From an uncultured Selenomonadaceae bacterium (GTDB lineage Bacteria; Bacillota; Negativicutes; Selenomonadales; Selenomonadaceae): a stretch of 64,000 nt of DNA. Both the position numbers and the translations under genes were made by a program. Positions within the stretch are counted from its first letter, which is position 1. The number at the start of each line of letters is the position of its first letter. The stretch lies in the NCBI GenBank assembly GCA_902778455.1, contig CACYXR010000014.1, positions 1 to 64,000 of the forward strand, in the 5' to 3' direction. A model generated the notes under the pieces. That model was not told the DNA's origin, ran no database searches, and saw nothing but the letters and a program-made list of their open reading frames with translations. Shown here one piece after another: positions 25,998-50,342 of this stretch.

Positions 25998-26027
25998 ATT
26001 ATAATGCCTTAGTTCAGAGTTTGTCAA
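25998..26027 (-). promoter_or_regulatory. Proximal ilvE promoter
   Basis: Read on minus: TTGACA, an 18-base spacer, TATAAT. The boxes are at 26022-26027 and 25998-26003. The -35 box lies in a 10-bp hairpin palindrome (AGAGTTTGTC/GACAAACTCT) that could be an operator. The expected transcript leader is about 45 bases. Confidence 0.75.
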
Positions 26028-26116
26028 AGACAAACTCTCCTTGACAGCATTTCAACGAGTATCAACGAGTTATAATGCCTTAGTTCAGAGTTTGTCAAAG
26101 ACAAACTCTCCTTGAC
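25999..26116. repeat. Tandem 47-base direct repeat carrying promoters
   Basis: Two identical 47-base units at 25999-26045 and 26070-26116 are separated by 24 bases that themselves hold a doubled CAACGAGT. Each unit contains a palindrome and a complete minus-strand promoter. Confidence 0.9.
26069..26098 (-). promoter_or_regulatory. Distal ilvE promoter copy
   Basis: This is the second copy of the repeat: TTGACA at 26093-26098, an 18-base spacer, and TATAAC at 26069-26074 on minus. The -10 differs at its last base because the repeat boundary falls there. Confidence 0.65.
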
Positions 26117-26121
26117 TGCGT

Positions 26122-27885
26122 TTATCTTGCTGATCCTGCTTCTCCACGCATGACTGCCGGATAAAGCTCTGAAATACTCATAGTCTTGTCAAGTTGCAGC
26201 TTGTCCAGCCCGTAATAATCGCGAACAGGATCGCGGGTCAATCCCGTATCGAAATCATCATACGCGATATGGCGAAGAATCCTCCGCCGTTCCGGAATCT
26301 CACTGCACGGTACAAAAACGGTTTTTTCTCCCGCTTCCGCTTTCTGCGCGATAAACGCAAGCCGAAGCGCGTCCTCCCGCCAAATGCTGTACAACACTGC
26401 CATCGTCGCGATTACGATGAACCCCAGCACGCAAGCGCCGCCCCTGCGCCAATTCCTGCCTTCCAAACGGTCAAGCAGCGGCGCTCGTACCTCGGGAATC
26501 CGAAGAACCGCCACGGCGCCGATAATCAGCATCACCGACGAACTGAACAACGCGCGTCCCGGAAAGGACGGAGCCCCCACCATCATAAAATTGTTGAAAA
26601 AACACAGTCCGACGCAAAAAGCCGCATAGCGAAGCTCGGGATAATCCTCCGCCAGCATCCGCCATGAAATTCGATCTTTCAGCGCCTTGACGCTTTCCTT
26701 GGAAACGTCAAGAGAACGGACACTGGAAAAATAAACATAAGCGACGCCTAAAAGATAAATCAAAGCTTCCTCGAAGCCCTGCATCGTGTTGTTGAAACGC
26801 GCATGCAGCGCGGCGTCCGTAAGGCCCAGCGGCAAGAAGATCCCGTGAACGACGGCCATCTCGACAGCCCGCCAAAAAAATCCCGTAGTGAAAAAGGAAA
26901 TCGTGCTCACGAGAAGAACGCCAAGCAGGATGTAATGACGACCGTACTGCGGTGCGGATGCGACGGCGATTCCGCGCCGCTGCGCCGATTCCAGATAGAG
27001 AAGCCGGATGGCAAGCACAAGGGTCAGCAGGATCGGCGTCATGTACAGGATCATTTCCAGATTGCCTGAAATCACATTGGGAATATGGAACAGCCATCCG
27101 CGGTCCCGGTCTTCATCAATACGGACAAAATTCCCCGGCGCGATAATGCAGACCACGCTGCCGAGAAGCGAACCGATTGCTCCCGTTCCCATCCATGGAG
27201 CGAAAACGCCTTGTCGATATGCGCGCCAAACACACCAAAAGACAAGCAGTGTCGTCGTCACAGTCAGGTTTTCCACGGAACAGGCGGCCACCGCTCCCAA
27301 CGGAAGCATCACCGCCGTCAGCCACGGACGGCGCGTAACCGTCCCTTCCGTCAACGCGAGATTATACGGCAGCAGGAACACAGCCGTCAACAGCCCCGTC
27401 CACAGATAAACCGCGGAGCCGCAAAGCCAAATCGCCACCTCTCCAAAGTGGGACAGGCCGAACCATAGAAACGCCCCGGCCACAGCGAGCATCTTCGGCT
27501 CGTCGAGACAGGCCGCCTTTCGCCGCGCGTGCATCACAATGACCGCGCACATCGCGGAAAAAACGGCAGCGTTCGCGATGTTGAACCAAAATTTCCCCCA
27601 AAGCATGAACACGAACTGGATAAAAAAGCTGACCAGTCGGCCCCCATGCATCATATAATATCTCTCCAACGAAAGAAATACATCTCCCATGGACTGCAAA
27701 TGATCCCCTGTAAGCCAGACAAGGCCTGCCCAGTAGTCATCCCGGTACAGCGGCATCCAAGCGTTCGCCACATACATCAGGACGAACCATCCAAACAAAA
27801 CAGCCAGCCCCTTGGCTTTTTCCCTGCTTCCGTTAATCTTTGCTTCCCCCTCATCTTGACGGTTCCACTGTAAAGAGCCAGCCAT
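26122..27885 (-). CDS. Polytopic membrane protein, DUF6056-like
   Basis: A 587-residue protein with about ten to twelve membrane helices. The first extracytoplasmic loop carries Tyr-Arg-Asp-Asp-Tyr-Trp-Ala-Gly near residues 47-54, then His-Gly-Gly-Arg-Leu near 80. An acidic pair followed by Gly-Gly-Arg is the pattern of GT-C-fold glycosyltransferases and of DUF6056 proteins, so a lipid-linked sugar transferase role is possible but unproven. A soluble C-terminal segment of about 70 residues ends the protein. The ATG at 27885 lies in the presumed budA terminator hairpin and lacks a good ribosome site, so the real start may be a downstream codon such as TTG at 27798. Confidence 0.7.
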   Translation of the reverse strand: MAGSLQWNRQDEGEAKINGSREKAKGLAVLFGWFVLMYVANAWMPLYRDDYWAGLVWLTGDHLQSMGDVFLSLERYYMMHGGRLVSFFIQFVFMLWGKFWFNIANAAVFSAMCAVIVMHARRKAACLDEPKMLAVAGAFLWFGLSHFGEVAIWLCGSAVYLWTGLLTAVFLLPYNLALTEGTVTRRPWLTAVMLPLGAVAACSVENLTVTTTLLVFWCVWRAYRQGVFAPWMGTGAIGSLLGSVVCIIAPGNFVRIDEDRDRGWLFHIPNVISGNLEMILYMTPILLTLVLAIRLLYLESAQRRGIAVASAPQYGRHYILLGVLLVSTISFFTTGFFWRAVEMAVVHGIFLPLGLTDAALHARFNNTMQGFEEALIYLLGVAYVYFSSVRSLDVSKESVKALKDRISWRMLAEDYPELRYAAFCVGLCFFNNFMMVGAPSFPGRALFSSSVMLIIGAVAVLRIPEVRAPLLDRLEGRNWRRGGACVLGFIVIATMAVLYSIWREDALRLAFIAQKAEAGEKTVFVPCSEIPERRRILRHIAYDDFDTGLTRDPVRDYYGLDKLQLDKTMSISELYPAVMRGEAGSAR

Positions 27886-27926
27886 AAATCAGGAAAAACT
27901 CCGATTTGGGGCCGGCTCTTTTTATC
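27872..27926 (-). terminator. Hairpin after the acetolactate decarboxylase gene
   Basis: On minus, AGAGCCGGCC pairs imperfectly with GGCTGGCTCTTT. It sits 15-70 bases beyond the decarboxylase stop and overlaps the annotated start of the next gene. The T-run is short, so it may leak. Confidence 0.5.
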
Positions 27927-27941
27927 AGCGTTTCATCCGCC

Positions 27942-28769
27942 CTATTTGTTCATATCCGACTGGGTATCATGCTCCGCGCTTTGTATGTCCTTGCTCATAT
28001 CCTTGGCCAGGTTCATCTCATGGAACTGCTTGTCATTATGGAGTATCATAGCAAATTTATCTGTCTTGTCAAGCTCTACGACGCCTTTCTTCAGGGAAAG
28101 CTCCAGAATATGGCCGCCCTGCTGCTTGTCGTCGGAAATGAAATGGAAATGCCAGCCGGGCGTGTTCAGTCCGCCCATATAATTGGGGCAGTACAATCCC
28201 ACTAAAGTACCCTTGATATTCTGGGCCGTAAACTCCGTCTGCTTTCCCTTGAGAGCTTCCACCAAAGTTGGATAGGGCTTCTGGCTGCCATACTCGCTGC
28301 GGAACAGGACCGAGGAAAATTCCGTATGCAGCTTAATCATGTAAAAACTATTTTCCCCGCACTTTTTGACTTCCTCGTTCAGAATCTGTTCAAAGGCTTC
28401 CTTATCCTTGACGTCCTTCATCTCAACGGCAATATCATTGTCAAAATACGTCACGGTAGCATAGGGAACGGCAACCTTGTCGTCGGCCACCACAACCCGG
28501 CCGTCGCCCAGAGCTTGGTAGACCGTGCCGTCCAGCATGATCATCTCCCCGTTCAGCCCCTCAAAGGTGCCGATGCCCGTATCGCCCAGGGAGCGCATAT
28601 CCTTCACTTTAACCGTGCCGCCAAAATACCCCTGCGCCAGAGACTGCAAAAGCGCCACCTGATTCAGGCTCTCGCGCTCTTCCAGGGCAGGAGTGGCATA
28701 GCCCACACTGCCCGTCAAAAGGCCGGCGACCATGGCCAAAGCAAGTTTCTTTTTGAGGTTCGTGTTCAT
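27942..28769 (-). CDS. Alpha-acetolactate decarboxylase with signal peptide
   Basis: A 275-residue enzyme that converts 2-acetolactate to acetoin. The C-terminal zinc site reads Pro-Gly-Trp-His-Phe-His-Phe, then Gly-Gly-His-Ile-Leu-Glu, giving the His-x-His and His ligands. Gly-Thr-Val-Gly-type and Leu-Asp-Gly-Thr-Val-Tyr-Gln motifs lie near 75-90. The first 25 residues form a signal peptide ending Gly-Tyr-Ala-Thr, so the protein should be exported, as in some Bacillales. The final 30 residues are polar and rich in Met, Asp and Lys. The start was set at 28769 by a ten-base spacing from AAAGGG; 28775 and 28778 are alternatives. Confidence 0.9.
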   Translation of the reverse strand: MNTNLKKKLALAMVAGLLTGSVGYATPALEERESLNQVALLQSLAQGYFGGTVKVKDMRSLGDTGIGTFEGLNGEMIMLDGTVYQALGDGRVVVADDKVAVPYATVTYFDNDIAVEMKDVKDKEAFEQILNEEVKKCGENSFYMIKLHTEFSSVLFRSEYGSQKPYPTLVEALKGKQTEFTAQNIKGTLVGLYCPNYMGGLNTPGWHFHFISDDKQQGGHILELSLKKGVVELDKTDKFAMILHNDKQFHEMNLAKDMSKDIQSAEHDTQSDMNK

Positions 28770-28866
28770 AATCATCATTCCCTTTCTTTTTTCTAAAACG
28801 CTTCTTGCGACAGCCGCATTCTTCCTTTGCGCTTACATGCGTCAAATATTGCTGGTTAGACTGTTT

Positions 28867-30294
28867 TCATACGGCTTTCGAGCCGCTCCAGAATGTGGAT
28901 TTCAGATACAGCAACAGGAAAATCACGGCAAACACCACGCCGGCAGGATAGCTCACGCTTACGGGGAGCTTTAGTCCTTCCCCGGCTTGAAGGATATAGG
29001 TGGTAGTGACTACCGACATGAATGTGGCCGGGATAGCCGCGACGAGCGAGACCATTTTGTTGTCCATCTTGCGATAGAGATACACGGCGCCCGTCCAGAG
29101 CACGATCATGGCAAGCGTCTGGTTTGTCCATGAGAAATAACGCCATACGATATTGAAATTGATCTGCGAAAGCGCGCCGCCGACAGCGAGAAGGGGAATC
29201 GCGAAGGCAAGCCGTTTGCTCCATTCTTTCTGCTGCACCCCGAACCAGTCCGCCAGCGTTAGTCGCGCGGAACGAAAAGCCGTATCGCCGGAAGTGATCG
29301 GGCAGGCGATGACGCCCAGCATCGCAAGGGTCGCACCGACGCCCGTTCCGAGGAATCCGACGCAGATGTCATAGACCGCTCCGCCGGGACCGCCCTTCGC
29401 AAGCCCTGCCGCAAGGCCCGCCGTCCCGTCGTAGAAGGTAATGCCGGCCGCCGCCCAAATCAACGCGATGATTCCCTCGGCGACCATAGCGCCGTAAAAT
29501 ACGGGACGCCCCAACCGCTCATCCTTCAGGCAACGCGCCATGATAGGAGATTGGGTGGAATGAAAACCCGAGATCGCGCCGCAGGCAACGGTGATAAACA
29601 TCAACGGCCAAATTGGCATCGACGCCCCCTTCGGGTGGAGATTTTCCAGCGCCATCTCCGGCATCACATGACCGCCCACGCCCGTGAACATTCCCACCAT
29701 GATCCCGAGAGCCATAACGATGAGGCAGACGCCGAAGAGCGGATAAAACCGCGCGATGATCGTGTCAATCGGAAGCAGCGTCGCGAGAAAATAATACGCG
29801 AGCACGACGAGGAGCCATATCTTGAAATCTATCGCCGTAAGCTTCGCGAGGAGCATCGCCGGCCCCGTCATGAACACCGTGCCGACCAGCACCAGCAGCA
29901 CGACGGAAAACACGCGCATGACGGTAAGCATCGTCGACCCCATATAAATGCCGACCACTTCGGAAATGCTCTTGCCGTCCTCCCGTATGGAAATCATGCC
30001 CGAAAGATAATCATGGACGCCGCCCGCGAAAATCGTCCCGAGCACAATCCAGAAATATACGCTCGGCCCCCAGAGGGCACCGCCCAAAGCCCCGAATATA
30101 GGGCCGAGTCCCGCGATATTGAGGAGCTGGATCATAAAGACCTTCCATGTCGGCAGAGGCATATAATCCACGCCGTCATTGAGCCGGATCGCCGGGGTCG
30201 TCCTGTCCGTCGGCCCGAACACGGAATCAACGATTTTGCCGTAAACCGCATACCCGATCACAAGAGCTGCGAGAGATATCAAAAAAGCTGTCAT
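28867..30294 (-). CDS. CstA family carbon starvation/pyruvate or peptide transporter
   Basis: A 475-residue protein with about twelve to thirteen membrane helices. Family blocks are intact: Gly-Pro-Ile-Phe-Gly-Ala-Leu-Gly-Gly-Ala-Leu-Trp-Gly-Pro near 63-76, Gly-Gly-Val-His-Asp-Tyr-Leu near 92, Phe-His-Ser-Thr-Gln-Ser-Pro near 245, and Gly-Asp-Thr-Ala-Phe-Arg-Ser-Ala-Arg-Leu near 340. It is shorter than the roughly 700 residues of E. coli CstA and matches the short form seen in many anaerobes. Family members move pyruvate or peptides; which applies here is not known. The ribosome site is AAGAAGG. Confidence 0.92.
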   Translation of the reverse strand: MTAFLISLAALVIGYAVYGKIVDSVFGPTDRTTPAIRLNDGVDYMPLPTWKVFMIQLLNIAGLGPIFGALGGALWGPSVYFWIVLGTIFAGGVHDYLSGMISIREDGKSISEVVGIYMGSTMLTVMRVFSVVLLVLVGTVFMTGPAMLLAKLTAIDFKIWLLVVLAYYFLATLLPIDTIIARFYPLFGVCLIVMALGIMVGMFTGVGGHVMPEMALENLHPKGASMPIWPLMFITVACGAISGFHSTQSPIMARCLKDERLGRPVFYGAMVAEGIIALIWAAAGITFYDGTAGLAAGLAKGGPGGAVYDICVGFLGTGVGATLAMLGVIACPITSGDTAFRSARLTLADWFGVQQKEWSKRLAFAIPLLAVGGALSQINFNIVWRYFSWTNQTLAMIVLWTGAVYLYRKMDNKMVSLVAAIPATFMSVVTTTYILQAGEGLKLPVSVSYPAGVVFAVIFLLLYLKSTFWSGSKAV

Positions 30295-30397
30295 ATAAAA
30301 CGCCTTCTTTCATAGAATTGTTTCGCCCGGAAAACCGCTTATTCCTCGCCCCCTCAAGCAGTTCCCTTGCTTCTTGCCTATTTTCGCCGTCATACGT

Positions 30398-30510
30398 TTA
30401 AGGAAACACTGATTAAGTCAATTCGTGCATCTGTCGAGGGATTTTTTCGACTGTCTAGGAAAAGCCCTCGAAGGCGTAGCATCGCTACGTCGAGATCAGT
30501 GTTTCCTTAA
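30398..30510 (+). repeat. MITE-like foldback repeat, copy A (short form)
   Basis: 113 bases with 16-bp perfect terminal inverted repeats: TTAAGGAAACACTGAT and its complement. Between them are GTCGAGGGATTTTTTCGAC and a CGTAGC-ATC-GCTACG hairpin. Relative to copies B and C the right arm is deleted, so the right end joins directly after the central hairpin. It lies between cstA and the SYLF gene. Confidence 0.85.
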
Positions 30511-30547
30511 GGTTACATGCGCTTGATCTTGCCCTTGATCCGGATTG

Positions 30548-31153
30548 CTATTCCTCTTGCTCCTCGTATGTATTCAGTTTCTTGTCCGGGTAGATCTTCG
30601 TTCCCTTGATGGACGCATCCAAAGTCAAACCCTTTTTCGTGATTTGATAGACCCAAATTCCCTTCGCGGCAATGGAGGCGCCCTCGATGGAATCACCCGT
30701 TACGCCGTCGTTGGCCGCCGCTTCCGCTGAAGTGGCAAACTTGATATCGCCGGAAATAAAGGAATCCCAAGCAGTTTCCGTTCCAATGACGAAAATCAGA
30801 TCATACTCCTTCACACCAAGGCCAAGGCCGACTCCCATTTCCTTCATGCGCATATAGAGGCGTTCGCCCGTCTCATTGTTCACCGCCAGTCCTCGTCCGT
30901 GCGCGTCCCCGAAGATTCCCAGCTTGATCCCCGTATTGCTCAGCGTAGCATAGGCGTAACAATTCTCTATGACATTCTGGGCCGACGGGACTTTCTCATA
31001 CAGATTCTCAAGCGCTTTATCGGACAATTCTTCAATCTTCTCCCGTTCCTTCACGATTTTGTCCGCATCGGCCGCCAGGGCGACAGTCGACAGCAGGCAC
31101 AGCACAAGCGCCGTCATCAAACATGCTGCCAATTTGTTGATAAACTTGTTCAT
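30548..31153 (-). CDS. SYLF-domain (YSC84-like) exported protein
   Basis: A 201-residue protein with a signal peptide (about residues 1-28, ending Ala-Leu-Ala-Ala). The rest is a SYLF/Ysc84 lipid-binding domain: Ala-Tyr-Ala-Thr-Leu, Gly-Ile-Phe-Gly-Asp-Ala-His-Gly-Arg-Gly, Gly-Val-Gly-Leu-Gly-Leu-Gly-Val-Lys-Glu-Tyr, and Ser-Ile-Glu-Gly-Ala-Ser-Ile. Members bind phosphoinositides in eukaryotes; the bacterial role is unclear. The ATG at 31153 has GGGAGG upstream. Repeat copies A and B flank the gene. Confidence 0.88.
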   Translation of the reverse strand: MNKFINKLAACLMTALVLCLLSTVALAADADKIVKEREKIEELSDKALENLYEKVPSAQNVIENCYAYATLSNTGIKLGIFGDAHGRGLAVNNETGERLYMRMKEMGVGLGLGVKEYDLIFVIGTETAWDSFISGDIKFATSAEAAANDGVTGDSIEGASIAAKGIWVYQITKKGLTLDASIKGTKIYPDKKLNTYEEQEE

Positions 31154-31268
31154 TGTGGTATCCTCCCTTTTCCTTCGAATCATGTATACTTTCCCTTTCT
31201 TATTTTATCCCCTCTCTGCGCTTAAATCAATGGAAAGTTCCGGATTGAGACAGCTTTGTATTGTGCCT

Positions 31269-31476
31269 TATAGGAAACACTGATTAAGTCAATTCGTACA
31301 TCTGTCGAGGGATTTTTTCGACTGTCTAGGACGTGACATGCCAGTGGCATATCACGCCTCGAAGGCGTAGCATCGCTACGTCGAGAGGGATTTGACGACG
31401 ACAGGCGGAAAAAGCCCCGGTAGCGAAATAGTCCAGTGGACTGTTTCGCGGAGGGACTTATTCAGTGGTTCCTATA
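31269..31476 (+). repeat. MITE-like foldback repeat, copy B (long form)
   Basis: 208 bases. The 22-base ends TATAGGAAACACTGATTAAGTC and GACTTATTCAGTGGTTCCTATA are inverted with two mismatches. Interior modules are GTCGA-hairpins, a CATGCCA-GTGGCATA-type hairpin, the shared CGTAGC-ATC-GCTACG hairpin, and GCGAAA-TAGTCC/GGACT-GTTTCGC. It lies upstream of the SYLF gene and downstream of the amidase module. Confidence 0.88.
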
Positions 31477-31572
31477 GGTAATCACACATCCGATAAGTAC
31501 GGGAGGGAGGGGCGAACCCCTCCCTCCCTGCTCGATTCGACTCTGTCAGCTTCAAGGGGGACACAATGAATT

Positions 31573-31732
31573 TCACTCGTCCAGCTTGAAGTCGTAATGC
31601 CTGGAATAATCCTCCTGAATGTTCAAGCGGAACGTCCTGTTCGCCAGGTCGCAAACCGCTGTGTGCCATGTATTCCAGAAATTATTGGGGTGGATTTCCT
31701 GTCATGCAGCTTGCATGTATCCATACAGGCCC
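31573..31732 (-). pseudogene. Remnant 3' end of a second linear-amide hydrolase gene
   Basis: About 160 bases match the last 50 codons of the hydrolase gene at 33400-34575 (tail Ser-Arg-His-Tyr-Asp-Phe-Lys-Leu-Asp). One base is lost after Asp-Arg-Lys, shifting the frame, and the rest of the gene is absent. The homology also continues about 40 bases beyond the stop, matching the hydrolase-amidase intergenic sequence (CTCTGTCAGCTTCAA). It begins right at the amidase stop, so it is the scar of a tandem duplication. Confidence 0.85.
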
Positions 31733-31739
31733 CATCGTA

Positions 31740-33338
31740 CTATTTTTCATTCCTGAAATCCGGGAAACGTCCATCCTGATAGAAAGGAGCAACGACGTTT
31801 GACAGGGCGTATGCCACACGGAAGGCACTCAGGTCATCATAGGTGTTGCCGACAATCTGCACGCCGACGGGAACGTTTTTGTCGGACAGTTCAATCGGCA
31901 TCGCCACAACCGGATATCTGCTGGCAAGATTCCAAATCGGCGTCAGCATAAGGTTGGTGCTGGGATAGGTTTCCCCGCGTACCTGGGCAGCTTTATCAGG
32001 CGTCGCATCAAGATCGGCGGGGAAATGCGGCGTTGCCAGCGTGGGCATGACCAGAGCGATGCAGCCCTTCTCGAAGACCTTCTGCTGGACGTCCCGGTGC
32101 AGCTTCACCAGCATCATTTCTGCGTTCACCTGATCCTGCGGAGTCAGCTTGCCCGCATACGTCTCCAGATTCCTCACGTACGAGCTGAATTTGTCGCGAT
32201 GCTGCTCCAAACCGTCGAAAATGGCGTACATGCTTGTCGACATGAGCCCCTTGAAATAGGTCGGCATGAAGCTTTCGGCGCTGAGGTCGAGCTCTATCAC
32301 TTCAACCTGCGCTCCGGCCTCCTCTAGCGCCGCCACTGCGGCGTCTATGGCATGGTCGGATTCCTGGCTCAGGCCGCCCTGGAGCCAGTTCTTGAAGTAA
32401 GCGACGGCGACCTTCTGCCCCTGGATTGGAGCGTATTCCTGGGGATAGTCCAGCTTGGGACGAATCGAGGCATGAATCAGCGGACTGGGACCGGCAATGA
32501 CGTCCTGCATGAGCGCCATGTCGGCAAAAGTGCGGGCCATCGGGCCTAAGGTTTCGTAGGTGTTGTCCGACGTAGCTACACGGCCGTACGGCGGCTTGAA
32601 GCCGTACACCCCGTTCATGGAGGAGGGAATGCGGATGGAGCCGCCCATGTCGGAACCGGTGGCCAGCGTGCAGAAGCCCGCGGCCAGCGCCGCGCCCGAA
32701 CCGCCGGACGATCCGCCGGTGCCGTAATAGAGGTTCCACGGATTGCGGCTGACGCCGTAGAGGCGCGACCATGTCATGGGGCTGAGGTACTGCTCGGGTA
32801 CCGTCGTCTGGAAGACAAATATTGCGCCCTCATTACGGAGTTTCTGAATCATGGCGCCGTCGTCGGCGCACACCTCGCGGTCCTTCAGGAGAAGGGACGC
32901 GGCGTCGACGCGCCATCCCTTAACTTCATTCTCGTCCTTGACGCCGACGGTAATCCCTTCCAGCCTGCGTGCAGTGCCGTTCCGGTAGCGTTCGTCGGCC
33001 TCCTTTGCCAGCTTCCTGGCCTCGTCAAAGTTGTCGAAGGTGATGGCATTGACCTTGCCGGCATTGAACGTGTCCAGCTCGTTTACCAAATCCCGACGCG
33101 ATACGTTGTATTCGCCGTTGTACTTCTTTACACGGCTGATTTGTGCTTCCAGCACTTCGCTGGGCGTTACCTCGCCTTTTTCAAACAGTTCTATGAGCTG
33201 TACGGCAGGCATGTATGCCAGCTCTTCCTCCGAATACTTCGACTCGGCAAAAACTGCATTTGCGCCTGATGCAAAAAACGTAATCAGCACTGCTGCCATG
33301 AACGCGAATAGTGCTTTCCTGAAAAAATACCTGTTCAT
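31740..33338 (-). CDS. Secreted amidase (amidase signature family)
   Basis: A 532-residue hydrolase with a signal peptide (about residues 1-31, ending Ala-Val-Phe-Ala). The Ser-cisSer-Lys triad is visible: Lys in Ile-Thr-Val-Gly-Val-Lys-Asp near 133, then Gly-Gly-Ser-Ser-Gly-Gly-Ser-Gly-Ala-Ala near 208-217, and the nucleophile Ser in Asp-Met-Gly-Gly-Ser-Ile-Arg-Ile-Pro near 233. Such enzymes cleave carboxamide bonds; the substrate is unknown. It follows the linear-amide hydrolase by 61 bases on the same strand, with GGGAGG before the ATG, so the two probably work together outside the cytoplasm. Confidence 0.92.
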   Translation of the reverse strand: MNRYFFRKALFAFMAAVLITFFASGANAVFAESKYSEEELAYMPAVQLIELFEKGEVTPSEVLEAQISRVKKYNGEYNVSRRDLVNELDTFNAGKVNAITFDNFDEARKLAKEADERYRNGTARRLEGITVGVKDENEVKGWRVDAASLLLKDREVCADDGAMIQKLRNEGAIFVFQTTVPEQYLSPMTWSRLYGVSRNPWNLYYGTGGSSGGSGAALAAGFCTLATGSDMGGSIRIPSSMNGVYGFKPPYGRVATSDNTYETLGPMARTFADMALMQDVIAGPSPLIHASIRPKLDYPQEYAPIQGQKVAVAYFKNWLQGGLSQESDHAIDAAVAALEEAGAQVEVIELDLSAESFMPTYFKGLMSTSMYAIFDGLEQHRDKFSSYVRNLETYAGKLTPQDQVNAEMMLVKLHRDVQQKVFEKGCIALVMPTLATPHFPADLDATPDKAAQVRGETYPSTNLMLTPIWNLASRYPVVAMPIELSDKNVPVGVQIVGNTYDDLSAFRVAYALSNVVAPFYQDGRFPDFRNEK

Positions 33339-33399
33339 TCACTATACCTCCCATTACGATTCGGCTCTGTCAGCTTCAAAGGGGACACAATGAATTTCA

Positions 33400-34575
33400 T
33401 TAATCCAGCTTGAAGTCGTAATGCCTGGAATAATCCTCCTGGATGTTCAAGCGGAGCGTCCTGTTCGCCAGGTCGTAAACCGCCGTGTGCCATGTCTGCC
33501 AGAAGTTATTGGGCTGGATGTTCCTGTCGTGCATCTTGTAGGTATCAATGCAGGCCTGAATAACCGGGGTGAAATCCATCGGCGCGCTTGCGATTGTCAG
33601 ATTTCCGTCGGTAAACTCCGTGTACCAGAACGGATTTGTATCAGATTCATAAGCCTGGGTATATTTCACACGCTCCATCAAGCGGGCCATGCCTTCAGCG
33701 GATTCTCCGCCCTCCGCGTAATGTTCCTTCAGGATGGCGTAACGCTCAACTCCGCAGGCATGAGGCGTAAGGACGGGGAAGTTCTCATAGGTTTTGCCCG
33801 CTGCTGTCTGCCCTTTCTGCGCCGCGAACTTGGAGTACCTGGAGTAGCTGCCGTAGTTGACATAGAAATTGGTCATGATTTTGTCCGTGTCGTTTCTGGC
33901 AACAAGCTCGCCGTCAATGCATTCAATGATATACGTCTCTTTCTCGTCGGAGAGCATCCAGTGAAGCCCCCAGGTGCCATAGCCGCCGTAAATGTCCATA
34001 TTCTTCAGCAGCTCTACGCCATGAGCGGCGGATGTTGCGTGATCCAGAACGTAGCGGACTACGGAGACGGCATGGATGCGCGGTTTTCCGTAATTGGTGG
34101 AGCGAAGCGTGGCGAAGTCCAGATCGACGGCGGGACAAACGTTGCAGTTCATGGCCACGCCGTTTTCATTGATGCCGTCAAAAGTCAGGTTCGGCAATGC
34201 GAGCAGCTGAGATTCCGAAACCTTGTCAACTTCATTGGATTTCAGCGTGAGAATCGCGGCCAGTCCTATGCTTGCATAACGTCCTTCTTTTGCGGCAACC
34301 TTGATCACGAATTCCGGCACGTCTGCGTAATCCAGATCCAAATTGCGGCCGTAGAAGTTTCCGTTGCGTACGGCGGAGCATGCGAAGCCGGTTTTGACCT
34401 GCTCGCCTGTCGAGAGGTCAACCGGATAGTCGGTGTACTCCATGTAGTACAAGTAATTATCCAACTTCTTCGGAGCCGTGAATGAGGCCGCCTGCGCCGC
34501 TGAAACGCAAACGGCGAAACTGAACGCCATAAGCGCTGTCAAAAAGAGCCGGAACGCTTTTTTAGAGATAGTCAT
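33400..34575 (-). CDS. Secreted linear amide C-N hydrolase (choloylglycine hydrolase superfamily)
   Basis: A 391-residue Ntn-type hydrolase, with bile salt and penicillin V hydrolases and acylase-like enzymes as relatives. A signal peptide covers residues 1-29. The nucleophile is probably Cys near residue 66 in Gly-Phe-Ala-Cys-Ser-Ala-Val, with Arg-Asn-Leu-Asp 14 residues later and Asn-Glu-Asn-Gly-Val-Ala-Met-Asn near 137-144. If so, about 36 residues must be removed by maturation to expose Cys. GAGGAGG precedes the ATG. It is the first gene of a two-gene unit with the amidase, and a decayed partial copy lies downstream. Confidence 0.85.
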   Translation of the reverse strand: MTISKKAFRLFLTALMAFSFAVCVSAAQAASFTAPKKLDNYLYYMEYTDYPVDLSTGEQVKTGFACSAVRNGNFYGRNLDLDYADVPEFVIKVAAKEGRYASIGLAAILTLKSNEVDKVSESQLLALPNLTFDGINENGVAMNCNVCPAVDLDFATLRSTNYGKPRIHAVSVVRYVLDHATSAAHGVELLKNMDIYGGYGTWGLHWMLSDEKETYIIECIDGELVARNDTDKIMTNFYVNYGSYSRYSKFAAQKGQTAAGKTYENFPVLTPHACGVERYAILKEHYAEGGESAEGMARLMERVKYTQAYESDTNPFWYTEFTDGNLTIASAPMDFTPVIQACIDTYKMHDRNIQPNNFWQTWHTAVYDLANRTLRLNIQEDYSRHYDFKLD

Positions 34576-34770
34576 TGGATCTCCTCCTCGTATAGAATTT
34601 TAACCCTGCGCGGGCTCAATACCAGTTTATTTTTGTTTGATATTTTAGTCAACGGGGGTTCCAGATTGTCACACCTTACTATTATTTAATGAACAGATCC
34701 AAAACATGGGACGGCGTAAAAGCGGCAGAACGGTTGAATCCGTGATACGCACCTGAACCATGATGATAAA

Positions 34771-34812
34771 ATAAACGAGCCATACAGACATGGAATGTAT
34801 GACCCGTTTATT
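34771..34812 (-). terminator. Terminator-like hairpin beyond larA
   Basis: An imperfect stem from ATAAACG to CGTTTAT with an inner CATAC/GTATG pair. On minus it is followed by TTTTATC. It would stop transcripts leaving larA through repeat copy C. Confidence 0.5.
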
Positions 34813-34827
34813 TCCTCAACTTATCCT

Positions 34828-34995
34828 TTAGGAATCACTGATTAAGTCAATTCGTGCATCTGGCGAGAGATTTTTTCGACTGTCTAGGAAAAGACCTCGA
34901 AGGCGTAGCATCGCTACGTCGAGAGGGGATTTGACGACGGCAGTCGGAAAAAGATCCGTCAGAGGCGCGGAGGGACTTATTCAGTGGTTCCTTTA
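34828..34995 (+). repeat. MITE-like foldback repeat, copy C (long form)
   Basis: 168 bases in the same orientation as copies A and B. The left end is GGAATCACTGATTAAGTC and the right end is GACTTATTCAGTGGTTCC. The right end overlaps the last codons and stop of larA (34977-34995). Confidence 0.87.
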
Positions 34996-36260
34996 TACAG
35001 CGGCACAGTCAGGCTGCCCGTCGGCATCAGCGTTACCGTGTAGTCCTTGCCGACATACTGCTCCGCGAGCTTCAGCGCCTCGTCCACCTCGTCCACCGCC
35101 GCCGTGAACAGCATATCCTTCGCAAGCTGCTTGTCGAGCGCCGTCACGAGGATGAATTTCGCCTTCTTCATCAGGCGAGTGACCGCATACGCCTTGTTCG
35201 CGCCGATCACGAAGCGTTTTTCCAGTTCCTTTTCGATGGCCTCCGGCGAACCGAGGCGCTTGCACGTCTCTTCGAGGACCTTGCTGCCGCTGCCCTCTTC
35301 GCACTCGGCGAGCAGGATGACCACGCCGCCCTCGCGCACCGCCAGCGACGCGTTGTCCATCGTCTTCTGCATCTGATAGACGTTGATATCCTTCGGATAA
35401 CCGCCGCAGCTGACGATGACCACATCGGCCTCCTTCTCGATCGGCACGCCGTAGGTCGCGTCGACGAACTTGCAGGCCTCGATATGCGCTTTCACATAGT
35501 CGCCCGCGAACATTTTCAGGAAACGATGCTCGGCGTCGAGCACCGCGTTGAACAGGAACACGCTGCGCCCTTTCGCCCAAAGCGCGACGCCCTCCAATTG
35601 ATCGTCATAGACGGGATTACCCGCCGCCTTGCCGAGGCCGGCACGCGGATCCATCATGAAACTGTGGTTGTGGCGCACCGTCTCCATCGCCGCGCAGCCC
35701 GGGAGCACCGCTTTGCGTCCGCCGCCGTAGCCGCTGAAATAATGATGGACGATAGTGCCGGTCAGGATCACATGATCGCTGTGACAGATACGCTTATTGA
35801 TCAGCACCGGCGTGAAAAAGCTCGTCGTGCCGAAATACTCGAAATCCTCGGGGATGTTGCAGTCGCTGTTGAACATCTTGATCCGCGAAGCAACCTCTTC
35901 GCCGACGCCCTCTTTCATTTCTTCTTCGGTCATCAGGCGGTGCGTGCCGAGGGAAAAGACGATCTGCATGTTCTCGTCGGGCACGCCGAGGCGGTTCATC
36001 TCGTTGACCAACACCGGCATGAAATCGAAGCTGTTCGCCACGCGGGTCGGGTCGTTGCAGATAAACGTGACCGTATCGCCGGGCTTGACGATTTGGGAAA
36101 GCGGCGGCGTGCCGATCGGATGCTCGATGGCGTCCAGCACCGCCGCCTTGACGTCGGTCAGAAGCGGCTGCTTCGGCATTACGATTTCCTTGAGCACACG
36201 GCTTTCGTCGAGAGAAAATTTCTTCGTCCCCCGCCCGTAATGAAAAGTGTACTCCTTCAT
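34977..36260 (-). CDS. larA: Nickel-dependent lactate racemase family protein
   Basis: A 427-residue protein of the LarA family, which interconverts hydroxy-acid enantiomers with a nickel pincer cofactor. Key residues are visible: Gly-Thr-His-Arg near 106-109, His-His-Tyr-Phe-Ser-Gly-Tyr-Gly-Gly-Gly-Arg-Lys near 177-188 with the cofactor-bearing Lys, and Gly-Gly-Tyr-Pro-Lys-Asp-Ile-Asn near 285-292. No larB, larC or larE cofactor genes are in the window. The last residues Gly-Thr-Thr-Glu and the stop are read from a mobile repeat end. Many LarA homologues act on substrates other than lactate, so specificity is open. Confidence 0.88.
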   Translation of the reverse strand: MKEYTFHYGRGTKKFSLDESRVLKEIVMPKQPLLTDVKAAVLDAIEHPIGTPPLSQIVKPGDTVTFICNDPTRVANSFDFMPVLVNEMNRLGVPDENMQIVFSLGTHRLMTEEEMKEGVGEEVASRIKMFNSDCNIPEDFEYFGTTSFFTPVLINKRICHSDHVILTGTIVHHYFSGYGGGRKAVLPGCAAMETVRHNHSFMMDPRAGLGKAAGNPVYDDQLEGVALWAKGRSVFLFNAVLDAEHRFLKMFAGDYVKAHIEACKFVDATYGVPIEKEADVVIVSCGGYPKDINVYQMQKTMDNASLAVREGGVVILLAECEEGSGSKVLEETCKRLGSPEAIEKELEKRFVIGANKAYAVTRLMKKAKFILVTALDKQLAKDMLFTAAVDEVDEALKLAEQYVGKDYTVTLMPTGSLTVPLYKGTTE

Positions 36261-36314
36261 CAGATCATCTCCTTTGTGTAGTGTAAAATAATTGAGTTTG
36301 CGGCAATCGTCACG

Positions 36315-36368
36315 TCACAAAAACCTCATCCACCGCTAAAGCGGTCCCCCTTCCCCAGAGGGGAAGGC
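36315..36368. repeat. Partial copy of the CCTTCCCC-ended intergenic repeat
   Basis: AAAACCTCATCCACCG, a GCTAAAGC hairpin and CCTTCCCCAGAGGGGAAGG match the right half of the element at 23493-23612. The left half is missing. It lies between nnr and larA. Confidence 0.65.
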
Positions 36369-36373
36369 CAATA

Positions 36374-37924
36374 TTATTCCCCGTTCTTCAGCCGCAGCCG
36401 CGCTCCCGGAAGGTTGTCGAGGATATCGCCCGCTACCAGTCCTTCCGCTTTTTCCTCCGCCGCCATGTCCCCGGCCAGGCCGTGCAGATAAACGCCGAGG
36501 ACAGCCGCCGATTCCGCCCCCGCTTCATGGACCAGCCCTGCAATCGCGCCCGCCAGCACGTCGCCTGCGCCCGCCGTCGCCATCGACGGATTGCCCTTCG
36601 AAGTGAAGCAGACGCGCCCGTCGGGAAACGCCACAATCGTGCATTCGCTCTTGACGACCAGGATAGCCTGCCATTCGGCTGCCGCCTTGCGGGCGTAAGC
36701 GACAAGATTTTCCCGAAGCTGCGGCACCTTGATATCCAAAAGCTCCGCCAACTCGCCGAGGTGCGGCGTCATCAAAAGCGGCGCCCCCAGCTTCCTGAGT
36801 TCCTCCGTGTGCCCATGGAACGCATAGAGCGCGTCGGCGTCCAGTACCAACGGCATCTGCACGCGCGCGGAGATCTGCCGCACCATCGCGCAGGTCTCCG
36901 AGTCGCGGCCCAAACCAGGCCCGATCAGCACCACGTCGAATTTCGGCAGCAGCACGGAAAGCGCATCCACCGCCGACGTCCCCAGCACGCCGGGACGCAG
37001 CTCCGGCAGCGGACTCGTCATGACCTCGGTCGTTTTAGACGCCAAAATATCCGCTACCCCGTCCGCCGCAGCCACTGTGGAAATACCGGCTCCGGCCCGC
37101 AGCACCGCCGTCGAAGCCATTGCCGCCGCTCCCGTCATACCGCGCGAACCGGCCACCACCAGCACGCGCCCGCAGACGCCCTTGTGCACATCCGCCGCGC
37201 GCACCGGCAAAAGGTTTCGCACCGATGCATCGTCCATGTATTCCTGCATGATGCTCTTGTCATCCAAAAGCGCCTGCGGCAGGCTGATCGGATCGACGAC
37301 GATCTTGCCCGCGCACGCCGCGCCGGGGCAGAAAAAGAGTCCCGCCTTCGGCAATCCGAATGTGGCCGTCGTCTCCGCAATGATCGCCGCTCCATGCGCC
37401 GCGCCCGTGTTCGCGTCTACGCCGCTGGGAATGTCGATGGCGACTACATGGCGAGCCTCTTCGTTCACCATGCGAATCAGCCGCTCCTCCGTCTCCCGGA
37501 GCGGCCCTTTGACGCCCGTGCCGAGGATGCCGTCGAGCACGCCGTCCGAAAGCCGCAAATAAATCCTGAGCTTCTCCCAGTCCCGTTCCTCCGCCAGAGG
37601 ACGAACGAGAATCCCCAGCTTTTTGCAAATCGCCAGGTTTTTCCGCGTCGCATCCTTGGAATGCTCGGCATTGCCAACGGTGTAAATCGCGAGCTTCGCG
37701 CCCCGGCTGAAAAGATGCCGCGCCGCCGCGAAGGCGTCACCGCCGTTGTTGCCGCTGCCCGCCAACACGCAGACCGTCCGCCCCTGCACCTCTCCCAAAA
37801 GCCCGGTCAGAGCGTCCGCCGCCGCGCGGCCCGCGTTCTCCATCAAAAGCGATTCGTCAATACCGTACATTTCTGCCGCCATCTTATCGATGCGCCGCAT
37901 TTCCTCAACCAAGGCAATTTTCAT
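36374..37924 (-). CDS. nnr: Bifunctional NAD(P)H-hydrate epimerase/dehydratase
   Basis: A 516-residue metabolite-repair enzyme that restores damaged NADH and NADPH hydrates. The N-terminal YjeF epimerase domain (about 1-215) has Gly-Ser-Gly-Asn-Asn-Gly-Gly-Asp-Ala near 56-64. The C-terminal ribokinase-like dehydratase domain (about 225-510) has Gly-Pro-Gly-Leu-Gly-Arg near 345, Thr-Pro-His-Leu-Gly-Glu near 400 and Gly-Ala-Gly-Asp-Val-Leu-Ala-Gly near 455. The ATG at 37924 follows GGAGG. It lies downstream of motAB on the same strand. Confidence 0.95.
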   Translation of the reverse strand: MKIALVEEMRRIDKMAAEMYGIDESLLMENAGRAAADALTGLLGEVQGRTVCVLAGSGNNGGDAFAAARHLFSRGAKLAIYTVGNAEHSKDATRKNLAICKKLGILVRPLAEERDWEKLRIYLRLSDGVLDGILGTGVKGPLRETEERLIRMVNEEARHVVAIDIPSGVDANTGAAHGAAIIAETTATFGLPKAGLFFCPGAACAGKIVVDPISLPQALLDDKSIMQEYMDDASVRNLLPVRAADVHKGVCGRVLVVAGSRGMTGAAAMASTAVLRAGAGISTVAAADGVADILASKTTEVMTSPLPELRPGVLGTSAVDALSVLLPKFDVVLIGPGLGRDSETCAMVRQISARVQMPLVLDADALYAFHGHTEELRKLGAPLLMTPHLGELAELLDIKVPQLRENLVAYARKAAAEWQAILVVKSECTIVAFPDGRVCFTSKGNPSMATAGAGDVLAGAIAGLVHEAGAESAAVLGVYLHGLAGDMAAEEKAEGLVAGDILDNLPGARLRLKNGE

Positions 37925-37982
37925 GCTTTTTCCTCCAGTTCCTTGCAAAAAGGGCTGCCGCGCAACACGACAGCCCGTAGTT

Positions 37983-38780
37983 TTACTGTTTTGCGACCAG
38001 CGTGCCTTCCGCCATCTTGAAGGAACGCGCAATCATGATCTCGACGCGGCGGTTCCGCCTGCGCCCTTCCTCGGTATCGTTCGGCGCCACCGGACGGTAC
38101 TCGCTGTAACCGATTGCGCTGAACCGCGCCGGATTCAACGTCGAATTCGCAGCGAACAAGGCCTTCATGAACGTCATCGCGCGCGCCGACGAAAGCTCCC
38201 AATTCGACGGATACTGCGCCGTCGCAATCGGCACATTATCCGTGTGCCCGGAAATAATCACGCGCTCCGGAATCGCCGCGAGCAGTCCCGCCACCACCGG
38301 CACGATCATCTGCGACTCGCTGACCAGCTCCGCAGAACCGGACGGAAAAAGTGCCGTTTCCTTAATGCGGATCATCAGCCCTTCCTCGGTCAGCGTCGTC
38401 CGAAGCTCGTCCTTCAGATGGTTCGTCACAATGTACGAGTCCATCGTTTCCTTCAAATGTTCCAGCGTTTCGTTCTCTGCGAGATACGCACGGTTGCCGT
38501 CGTCAGCGCCGTCGCCGGTTCCGTCGCCGCTGCCGTTGCCTGCCTGCGGATACGTCATAAGGCCAAGTCCGGGCAGCAGTCCTCCGCCGCCCATACCGAT
38601 ACCGAACGCCTTTCCGAACGCGGCGCCCATCGCCTGCGCCTTGCCGCCGTCAACCTTCGACATACAGAACAGGCAAAGGAACAATGCCAAAAGCAGCGTC
38701 ATCAAGTCGGAATAAGGGAGCAGCCAAGCCTCGCCCGCTTCTTCTTCGTGAGGCGGGCCGTGTTTTTTCTTCTTCGCCAT
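37983..38780 (-). CDS. motB: Flagellar motor stator protein MotB
   Basis: A 265-residue stator subunit. A basic start (Lys-Lys-Lys-His-Gly) precedes the single membrane helix (about 17-38), which holds the proton-carrying Asp in Pro-Tyr-Ser-Asp-Leu-Met-Thr-Leu-Leu. A Gly/Asp-rich linker (about 55-95) leads to an OmpA-like peptidoglycan-binding domain, with Ile-Ser-Gly-His-Thr-Asp-Asn-Val-Pro-Ile near 175 and Asn-Arg-Arg-Val-Glu-Ile near 245. Its ribosome site GGAGGG overlaps the last codons of motA. Confidence 0.96.
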   Translation of the reverse strand: MAKKKKHGPPHEEEAGEAWLLPYSDLMTLLLALFLCLFCMSKVDGGKAQAMGAAFGKAFGIGMGGGGLLPGLGLMTYPQAGNGSGDGTGDGADDGNRAYLAENETLEHLKETMDSYIVTNHLKDELRTTLTEEGLMIRIKETALFPSGSAELVSESQMIVPVVAGLLAAIPERVIISGHTDNVPIATAQYPSNWELSSARAMTFMKALFAANSTLNPARFSAIGYSEYRPVAPNDTEEGRRRNRRVEIMIARSFKMAEGTLVAKQ

Positions 38781-40790: not shown

Positions 40791-40814
40791 TTTTATTTTC
40801 AGGTTATGTTCCAT

Positions 40815-40830
40815 TGTTTCACGTGAAACA
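40815..40830. promoter_or_regulatory. parS site 1 (ParB-binding)
   Basis: TGTTTCACGTGAAACA, a 16-bp perfect palindrome identical to the Bacillus/Firmicute parS consensus. It lies in the non-coding gap between the LysR terminator and pth. Confidence 0.9.
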
Positions 40831-40946
40831 TTTTTTCGGAAATTATTTTCCTCTTGCAGCTAATTTTTATATAACCAGGAACCTGAAATAGTTGTGATTT
40901 CAAGGGTTTATATAAATTGTGCAAAAATTTTCAGGTTATGTTCGAA

Positions 40947-40962
40947 TGTTTCACGTGAAACA
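40947..40962. promoter_or_regulatory. parS site 2 (ParB-binding)
   Basis: A second exact TGTTTCACGTGAAACA, 132 bases from the first. Both are preceded by TTTTCAGGTTATGTT, so the surrounding unit was duplicated. Confidence 0.9.
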
Positions 40963-41046
40963 TTGCGTAAACATTTTTGCGCAAAACGCCTTATCCTCTG
41001 CTCAACTTCATGGTACAATATATATGGAAAACAGGAGGTTGAATGT

Positions 41047-48143: not shown

Positions 48144-49796
48144 ATGAAAAGTGACGTTGTAAAGAAAGGACCGACACGCTGCGCGCATCGGTCGTTGTTC
48201 TATGCCCTCGGCTTCGGGCCGGAGGAGCTTGAGAAGCCGCTGATCGGCATTTGCAATTCCTTCAATGAGGTCATCCCGGGCCATATGCATCTGCGGGAAA
48301 TCACCGAAGCTGCGAAGCTGGGCGTCGCAGCGGCCGGCGGCACGCCGATGGAGTTTCCGGCCATCGGCGTCTGCGACGGCATCGCCATGGGACACACCGG
48401 CATGAAATTCTCGCTGGCAAGTCGCGAACTGATTGCCGACTCCATCGAAGCTGTGGCGACGGCCAGCGGCTTCGACGGACTGGTATTGATCCCGAACTGC
48501 GACAAGGTCGTTCCCGGTATGCTGATGGCGGCGGCGCGGCTCAATATCCCGTCGGTAGTCGTCAGCGGCGGCGCGATGCTCGCCGGACGCTTCCACGGGC
48601 AGGACGTCAGCGTCAGCCAGTGTTTCGAAGCGGCGGGCAAGTTCGCCGCGGGCAAGATCAGCGCCGAGGAAATGGCGGATCTTGAGGCCCACGCCTGCCC
48701 GAGCTGCGGCTCCTGCGCAGGGCTTTTCACCGCGAACACGATGAATTCCCTGACCGAGGCTCTCGGCATGGGGCTTCCGGGCAACGGCACGATTCCCGCC
48801 GCCCACACCGGCGCGCGCCGACTGCTGGCGAAGCGCGCGGGTGCGGTCGTCATGGACCTCGTCAAGAAAAATATCTGCCCGCGGGACATCATGACCCGCG
48901 AAGCGTTTGAGAACGCGATTACGACGGATATGGGCATCGGCGGCTCGTCGAACACGGTGCTGCATCTGACCGCCATTGCCCACGAAGCGGGCATCGAGAT
49001 TCCCGCGCCGCTTTTCGACGAGATCAGCCGCCGCACGCCGTACATCACGAAGCTCAGCCCGGGCGGCAAACACCATATGCAGGACCTCGACGAGGCCGGC
49101 GGCATTTCCGCCGTCATGCACGAGCTGGCGAAAAAGGACCTGCTGCACCTCGACGCGCTGACCGTCACCGGCAAGCTCGGCGACCGCATCAAGGACGCGA
49201 AAATCCTGCGTCCCGACGTCATCCACAGTGTGGACGACCCGTACCGCAAGGAAGGCGGCATCGCCATCCTCAGCGGAAACCTCTGCCCGGACTACGCCGT
49301 GGTCAAAGCCTCGGCGGTCAGCGAGGATATGCTGGTATATGAAGGAAAAGCAAAATGTTACGACTCCGAGACGGCGGCCATCGACGCGATCATGGGCGGC
49401 GAGATCCACGACGGCGACGTTGTCGTCATCCGCTATGAGGGACCGAAGGGCGGCCCCGGCATGCAGGAAATGCTGAATCCGACGGCAGCCATCACCGGCG
49501 CCGGCCTCAAGGTCGGCCTGATTACCGACGGACGCTTCAGCGGCGCCAGCCAGGGCGCCTGCATCGGCCATATCTCGCCGGAGGCGATGGAAGGCGGCCC
49601 GATTGCGCTGATCCGGGACGGCGACATCATCTCCATCGACATCCCGAACCGCAAGCTGGAGCTCAAGATCAGCGACGACGAAATGGCGAAGCGCAAAGCG
49701 GCATGGAAAAAGCCCGAACCGAAAATCAAGACCGGCTACCTCGCCCGTTACGCGAAGATGACCACCTCGGCCAGCACCGGCGCCGTCGTGCAGTAA
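48144..49796 (+). CDS. ilvD: Dihydroxy-acid dehydratase
   Basis: A 550-residue iron-sulfur enzyme for the third step of branched-chain amino acid synthesis. Cluster and metal residues are visible: Cys-Asn-Ser-Phe-Asn near 36, [10 protein letters not shown] near 113-122, and [12 protein letters not shown] near 183-194. The C-terminal Thr-Asp-Gly-Arg-Phe-Ser-Gly-Ala-Ser is near 456. The start was moved to the second ATG (48144), seven bases from AAGGGGAG; 48138 would be too close. An extended -10 (TG-A-TATGAT) lies near 48079. Confidence 0.97.
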
Positions 49797-49853
49797 AAGT
49801 ACATAAAAAATACTCTGCTTGGATTCAAGCAGAGTATTTTTTATGTACTTTTA
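49796..49853. terminator. Bidirectional terminator shared by ilvD and leuD
   Basis: A 26-bp perfect stem (49796-49821 with 49826-49851) and a four-base loop. It spans exactly from the ilvD stop codon to the leuD stop codon, so each arm end lies in a stop codon. Confidence 0.9.
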
Positions 49854-50342
49854 CTTCCGTTTCTCTTTGATATATGGGATCAAGCCGCCCGCCTTCGCGA
49901 TGTCCTGCACAAAGCCGGGCAGCGGATGCGCCTTGAAGGTGTCGCCCGTCGTCAAATCCTCGATGGTTCCCTCCGACGTGTCGATGCGCAGCACATCGTT
50001 CGCCTTGATCTTCTCCACGTCGTCGCCGATCTCGAGCAGCGGCAGTCCGATATTGATGCCGTTCCGGTAGAAGATGCGCGCGAAGCTGGCCGCCACCACC
50101 ACGGGAACGCCCGAAGCCTTGATGGCGATCGGTGCGTGCTCGCGGGAGGAGCCGCAGCCAAAATTCTTGCCGCCGACCATGATGTCCCCCGCTTTGACCT
50201 CCTTCGCGAAAGTTTCGTCAATATCCACCATGCAGTGGGACGCCAGCTCCTTCGGGTCGAAGGAGTTCAGATAGCGCGCGGGAATGATGACGTCGGTATC
50301 CACGTTGTCGCCGTAGCGCCAGACCTTTCCTTCCGCTTTCAT
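49851..50342 (-). CDS. leuD: 3-isopropylmalate dehydratase, small subunit
   Basis: A 163-residue swivelling-domain subunit of isopropylmalate isomerase in leucine synthesis. It opens Gly-Lys-Val-Trp-Arg-Tyr-Gly-Asp-Asn-Val-Asp-Thr-Asp-Val-Ile and holds Gly-Lys-Asn-Phe-Gly-Cys-Gly-Ser-Ser-Arg-Glu-His-Ala near 58-70. This is the short form that works with the LeuC encoded immediately upstream. Its ATG abuts the leuC TAA, and its ribosome site GGAGGTGG lies within leuC. Confidence 0.97.
   Translation of the reverse strand: MKAEGKVWRYGDNVDTDVIIPARYLNSFDPKELASHCMVDIDETFAKEVKAGDIMVGGKNFGCGSSREHAPIAIKASGVPVVVAASFARIFYRNGINIGLPLLEIGDDVEKIKANDVLRIDTSEGTIEDLTTGDTFKAHPLPGFVQDIAKAGGLIPYIKEKRK

Follow-up and report, generated by a model that had tools for sequence, protein, structure and literature searches.

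The 64,000-nucleotide stretch analyzed here (“the window”) belongs to contig CACYXR010000014.1, our contig C14, of an uncultured Selenomonadaceae bacterium whose 2.60-Mb genome is held in 34 contigs; it carries a pair of genes for exported hydrolases, hyd and amid, with a partial duplicate of hyd (“the scar”) behind them and a copy of a short repeat on either side. This hyd-amid “module” is probably what deletion has left of a longer exported esterase and amidase cluster, and the flanking repeats, which are miniature inverted-repeat transposable elements (MITEs), inserted alongside it independently. On the minus strand the order is a larA-like gene, MITE C, hyd, amid, the hyd scar, MITE B, a SYLF-domain gene, MITE A, a cstA-like gene and a gene for acetolactate decarboxylase (Table 1).

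Gene order was compared in fetched neighborhoods, a subset of genomes drawn from relatives that are mostly incomplete bins; relatives are cited by our genome (G) and locus (L) labels. Among the Selenomonadaceae neighborhoods examined, an intact hyd adjoining amid is found in this genome only. Six reading frames separate the two genes in G006, where hyd is followed by three PF00135 carboxylesterases (COe1-COe2-COe3), a DUF3089 protein, an amidohydrolase (PF07969/Amidohydro_3, split in two frames) and then amid; G090 has the order hyd-Amidohydro_3-amid, and the graded series from G006 through G090 to our hyd-amid pair supports the loss of a block of genes. Elsewhere, hyd and amid lie on separate contigs (G053 and G020), hyd is followed by amid (the Synergistota bins L086 and L092), or amid runs straight on to the SYLF gene and acetolactate decarboxylase, neither hyd nor scar nor MITE intervening before SYLF (G055). 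The only carboxylesterase matches in the genome under study are on contig C11, with one MITE copy directly behind them. A candidate further member of the cluster, “p123,” was rejected as a gene of its own, being the N-terminal part of the amidohydrolase, which is a single frame in L050 and L104. Across the family, a hyd match was found in 15 of 121 genomes (full-length in nine) and an amid match at E 1e-100 in 16; within the genus, where many genomes are incomplete bins, hyd is present in 5/11 and amid in 7/11.

The junction between hyd and amid points in the same direction. Compared with the hyd 3′ flank of G006 and the amid leader of G055, our sequence keeps to a G006-like hyd 3′ flank until GAATCG, and from TAATGGG on it is amid leader, with TCG in common; G006 keeps the flank and the leader each whole, which supports block loss. 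The scar, which had been called a duplicate from the letters alone, is indeed one: it matches the last ~157 bp of hyd and 43 bp beyond the stop at 90%, with an altered stop, four amino-acid-changing and four silent codon differences. Remnants of hyd stand behind amid in three other genomes, as a pseudogene with N- and C-terminal parts in G046, a 3′ remnant in G032 and the last codons in G084, so the scar is probably the residue of a hyd copy that lay behind amid. The amid-then-hyd order of G046 and the remnants in G032 and G084 support a history of deletion, as do similar internal losses elsewhere: in L110 residues 10-104 of hyd are fused to 319-391, and in G002 a gutted amid precedes an intact hyd. 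The intact hyd of G006 and G035 is followed by a GC-rich hairpin of the same kind, so the one beyond the scar probably represents hyd's native 3′ flank.

We propose an ancestral cluster that would have read, on the minus strand, hyd1 - esterases - amidohydrolase - amid - hyd2. The block from the hyd1 3′ flank to the amid leader would have been lost, with the junction at the 3-bp match; in a separate loss the body of hyd2 would have gone, its 3′ end being left as the scar; and B and C would have transposed into the outer spacers, each creating its own 4-bp target-site duplication (TSD). Our observations comprise the relatives' gene orders, the remnants, the TSDs and the family assignments; the order of events, and deletion and not insertion as the step that joined hyd to amid, we infer.

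Several points weigh against this reconstruction. The complete proposed ancestor, with an intact hyd2, was found in no single genome, and absences in the presence/absence counts are weak because the relatives are mostly incomplete bins. Over the 43 bp after the stop our hyd is closer to its own scar than to G006, a likeness that argues for recent duplication or gene conversion in the lineage and not for an old hyd2; hyd and scar are likewise alike in G035, where the duplication takes in the 3′ flank and hairpin. Moreover, insertion of amid with a hyd tail beside hyd would give the same final arrangement. We consider such a cassette-like insertion unlikely: amid with a 200-bp hyd 3′ tail would have recombined via the tail into the 3′ flank of hyd, making the scar the second direct repeat. 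This would account for the native 3′ flank and hairpin standing behind the scar instead of behind the intact hyd, for the closeness of scar and hyd within their own lineage (and similarly in G035) and for the presence in G032 of amid with a hyd tail but no intact hyd. It leaves unexplained, however, the N- and C-terminal hyd pseudogene behind amid in G046 and the graded gene series, and the left junction, with only 3 bp matching, was not made by homologous recombination.

The hyd remnants show a notable bias toward 3′ ends, although they are not independent cases. Nine partial copies came out of the protein search of 121 genomes, seven of them C-terminal only (G000, G002, G026, G029, G032, G035, G053), one with both ends (G046), one internal (G072) and none N-terminal only; a distant hyd relative in a long open frame in G009 was excluded from this count. 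Further partial copies are present in G182 (C-terminal), G183 (both ends) and G075 (a weak C-terminal match), finds for which one of the searches was probed with the hyd tail itself. The bias, which came from a whole-protein search, could be taken to mean that the 3′ end of hyd is a functional DNA or RNA element (a recombination site or small RNA) retained on gene loss, and in 12 non-Synergistota sequences synonymous conservation over codons 381-391 is indeed high (0.886 versus 0.725 overall, with 14 of 381 windows as high). We think this very improbable: no such signal is present in 20 Synergistota sequences (0.667 versus 0.645), over all 32 it is weak, with 71 of 381 windows scoring as high, positions 27000-38000 have no Rfam match, and the terminator-proximal end of an operon's last gene ordinarily survives deletions. 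A functional tail had been entertained on a synonymous signal in nine genomes (9 hyd and 13 amid sequences, with length limits of 330 and 450 residues), which faded with the 32 sequences (hyd matches of at least 330 residues, L105 omitted), and it was dropped.

The earlier note had B and C bracketing the hyd-amid pair in the same orientation, as the coordinates and Pfam calls confirm, and had suggested that the bracketed segment might be lost, amplified or moved as a composite unit. Here each copy has its own intact TSD, TATA/TATA for B and TTTA/TTTA for C, so the two are separate insertions; a composite transposon would carry one TSD at its outer edges, and with unlike outer bases (TATA versus TTTA) we reject that reading for past movement. 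That B and C are the ends of a transposable or recombining segment bearing hyd and amid is thus hardly credible, for although they are same-orientation copies at each end of it, related elements are widely scattered in the genome and G106 has a transposase-bearing element with similar ends, this genome has no match to a PF01609 or PF13751 transposase and the bracketed unit occurs at no other site among the relatives examined. In none of these neighborhoods do both repeats flank hyd or amid; the two genes either lie apart or are separated by others, and these repeats do not surround them. The segment does vary, as had been supposed, given the genus counts above and the related genes across phyla, but not with B and C as the agents; recombination between them could in principle delete or amplify the 3.56 kb, and no sign that it did so was found here. 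The repeat-bracketed mobile module was therefore a false lead, now removed.

The repeats themselves form a well-populated family. A repeat search found three direct copies in the window, A at 30398, B at 31269 and C at 34827. They end in imperfect inverted repeats, one reading GGAANCACTGATTAAGTC and the opposite one GGAACCACTGAATAAGTC (inverted), with the pattern GGAA(A/T/C/G)CACTGA(T/A)TAAGTC. A probe from copy C has 43 matches in this genome and the inverted-end pattern 103 (at most two mismatches); the genome holds at least 40 copies. We inspected 23 sites (20 fetched plus A, B and C), of which 21 were end-paired by script, and 20 of these 21, B and C among them, have identical 4-bp TSDs, mostly TTAA. 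The flanks of L154 are mismatched (TTAA versus TTAG), L142 has no end pair, and copy A, unpaired by script, has by eye an 11-bp right end with TTAA on both sides. Copies are 122-240 bp long, the length varying because short internal palindromic blocks come and go, and their longest stop-free frame is 65 codons; B and C fold into long hairpins of about -93 kcal/mol each (RNA parameters). The family is present in all 11 genus genomes, with or without hyd, and in 16 of 189 family genomes, and in G006 a copy sits right behind amid at a base different from B. The B/C repeat and scar matches are far beyond chance, yet with so many matches in the genome the repeats are not particular to the hyd-amid locus. 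Three copies within ~4.4 kb is mildly unusual (P about 0.11-0.29 under random placement of 45-65 copies).

The likeliest parent kind of the MITE is an element such as that at L162 in G106, which is 1225 bp long with a PF01609 (DDE_Tnp_1) transposase frame of 341 amino acids, similar 18-bp ends and the TSD TAAA; this is one example, and its likeness to the MITE is confined to the ends. Like IS5-type insertion sequences and their MITEs, the family has imperfect inverted ends, a 4-bp TSD (mostly TTAA), non-coding copies by the dozen and, in L162, a transposase-bearing relative; the placement with IS5 is tentative and is based on PF01609, TSD length and a likeness of the ends to those of IS5. An IS1182-type parent was rejected, PF13751 having no match in this genome, as was a parent insertion sequence within this genome, for which PF01609 had none. 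Some contig ends fall 78-99 bp into the repeat; we dropped the idea that these mark collapsed full-length insertion-sequence copies, since breaks in the assembly where MITE stretches are identical would account for them equally. The right end of MITE C (34977-34991, GGAACCACTGAATAA) gives the larA-like frame its last codons (GTTE) and stop, so C inserted at the very end of that gene.

The hyd protein exceeds the Pfam cut-offs of PF02275 (CBAH; 32.7 bits versus 20.4) and PF03417 (AAT; 25.4 versus 23.2), and in a hand-picked alignment of 16 of the available hyd sequences Cys66 and GRNLDLDY are invariant (16/16), so that Cys66 is the inferred nucleophile. In these matches, and in the invariant Cys66 followed by GRNLDLD, hyd resembles the choloylglycine hydrolase and C45 (AAT) N-terminal nucleophile (Ntn) hydrolases, and it matches bile salt hydrolase structures at a phmmer E of 5e-5; it differs from them in a signal peptide judged by eye and in falling far below both NCBIfam cut-offs, those of the bile salt hydrolase equivalog (28.4 bits versus 350) and the C45 proenzyme subfamily (44.3 versus 85). 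The AlphaFold model of hyd, with a mean pLDDT (predicted local distance difference test) of 34, is too low to use for the Ntn fold. The amid protein scores 243 bits against a cut-off of 27 for PF01425, and its nearest PDB structures are GatA and aryl acylamidase.

The N-termini of both proteins resemble signal peptides by eye, so the small system of secreted amide hydrolases supposed earlier gains partial support, but the two are part of a larger, mostly esterase set. In our working model these exported enzymes would act jointly outside the cytoplasm on ester and linear amide bonds of small molecules: the Ntn hydrolase and the amidase here, joined in relatives by several esterases and an amidohydrolase. 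Esterases of the DUF3089 family are described as repeatedly cloned by their ester activity from bovine rumen libraries (PMC4431682; PMC4464377). The relatives' clusters contain DUF3089 proteins, a likeness to rumen esterases of family XV such as Est10 that holds at family level; this gene is a neighbor in relatives only, with none among the Pfam-scanned proteins of the window.

Ruminant bins with Selenomonadales, Schwartzia or Selenomonadaceae in their titles hold the nearest relatives of hyd; the sequence of Schwartzia succinivorans DSM 10502 stands at 79%. Of 38 named loci with a hyd relative, 21 have Synergistota titles (Synergistaceae, Synergistales, Fretibacterium, Pyramidobacter), and most of the remaining 17 are Selenomonadaceae or Selenomonadales, with one Oscillospiraceae and one Bacteroidales title. 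The aligned Synergistota hyd sequences are 79-86% identical to that of the window, and in a tree of the matches of at least 330 residues (33 including the window's own) neither Selenomonadaceae nor Synergistota forms a single branch, though few branches are well supported. As a control we took AlaS from the L094 contig, where hyd lies directly behind alaS and a ruvX-like frame (gene names by eye): it is 83-89% identical to five other Synergistota bins and 47-48% to four Selenomonadaceae. With an AlaS like that of other Synergistota, this contig is unlikely to be contamination and transfer is likely, and identities of 79-86% for hyd against 47-48% for AlaS across the phyla argue for cross-phylum transfer; on these comparisons hyd has likely moved between Selenomonadaceae and ruminant Synergistota. 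Searches of plasmids and viral contigs gave no hyd relative. One Synergistota bin has two hyd genes in tandem (L101:10001-12324), so hyd is able to duplicate in place.

An upstream box, TGACAATCYGGAAC, is found before hyd (34649-34671) and, in a weaker form, before the SYLF gene (31230-31250), 3-8 bp ahead of a TTGA -35-like hexamer. The pattern of box plus TTGA occurs at 12 places in 8 of 20 genomes, against one in the reversed control. The genes that it precedes include hyd in five genomes of the genus and, in single cases, SYLF (G055), amid (G032) and an amidohydrolase-like gene (G000:C17:69085); the Synergistota locus L083 has looser matches ahead of hyd and an acetolactate decarboxylase-like gene. 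The box is possibly a site for a shared regulator. A sigma-54 promoter was rejected because the spacing from box to TTGA varies (4 to 6). At L080:7720 the box stands before a 93-residue frame whose product, judged by eye, is similar to the Nif11-type leader peptide of a ribosomally synthesized and post-translationally modified peptide.

What takes the place of the mobile module is a testable picture, in which a cluster of exported hydrolases would have moved between two phyla of the ruminant gut and lost different parts from species to species; if one substrate is common to the enzymes, several rumen lineages would compete for it. More speculatively, and we hold this improbable, rumen Selenomonadaceae and Synergistota might share a community-wide, cassette-like set of exported esterases and amidases for one class of rumen substrate, swapped and cut back one gene at a time, the 3′ end of hyd serving as a recurrent join point and the conserved upstream promoter box (TGACAATCYGGAA) marking its members. 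Searches of open-licence PMC papers gave none whose title or opening lines describe the cluster, its transfer between these families or the MITE.

Table 1. Features of the hyd-amid locus, in window coordinates.
Feature	Position	Strand	Description
hyd	33400..34575	-	exported C45/choloylglycine-hydrolase-like Ntn hydrolase, 391 aa; candidate nucleophile Cys66
amid	31740..33338	-	exported amidase-signature protein, 532 aa; PF01425
scar	31533..31731	-	probable 3′ remnant of a second hyd copy: ~39 codons, altered stop, 43 bp of 3′ flank
GC-rich hairpin 3′ of scar	31501..31529	-	read by eye
junction of hyd 3′ flank (...GAATCG) and amid leader (TAATGGGAGG...)	33352..33357	-	3-bp microhomology TCG; position by eye
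MITE copy B	31273..31472	+	200 bp; TSD TATA (31269-31272, 31473-31476)
MITE copy C	34831..34991	+	161 bp; TSD TTTA (34827-34830, 34992-34995)
MITE copy A	30402..30506	+	short form, 11-bp right inverted end; TSD TTAA (30398-30401, 30507-30510); right end by eye
hyd promoter (putative)	34624..34671	-	TGACAATCTGGAAC box, then TTGACT-17-TAAACT
SYLF-domain protein	30548..31183	-	PF04366; directly after amid in G055

Three other repeats were seen in the window. Two 54-bp direct copies (96%) at 25999-26123, each with a GTTTGTC/GACAAAC palindrome, lie between an ilvE-like gene and the next gene, and a 30-bp perfect inverted repeat with a 4-nt loop is located at the end of an ilvD-like gene (49792-49855). 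Near the pth gene, at 40795-40964, there are two 38-bp copies with TTTCACGTGAAA in each, a palindrome of ParB/Noc-like appearance.

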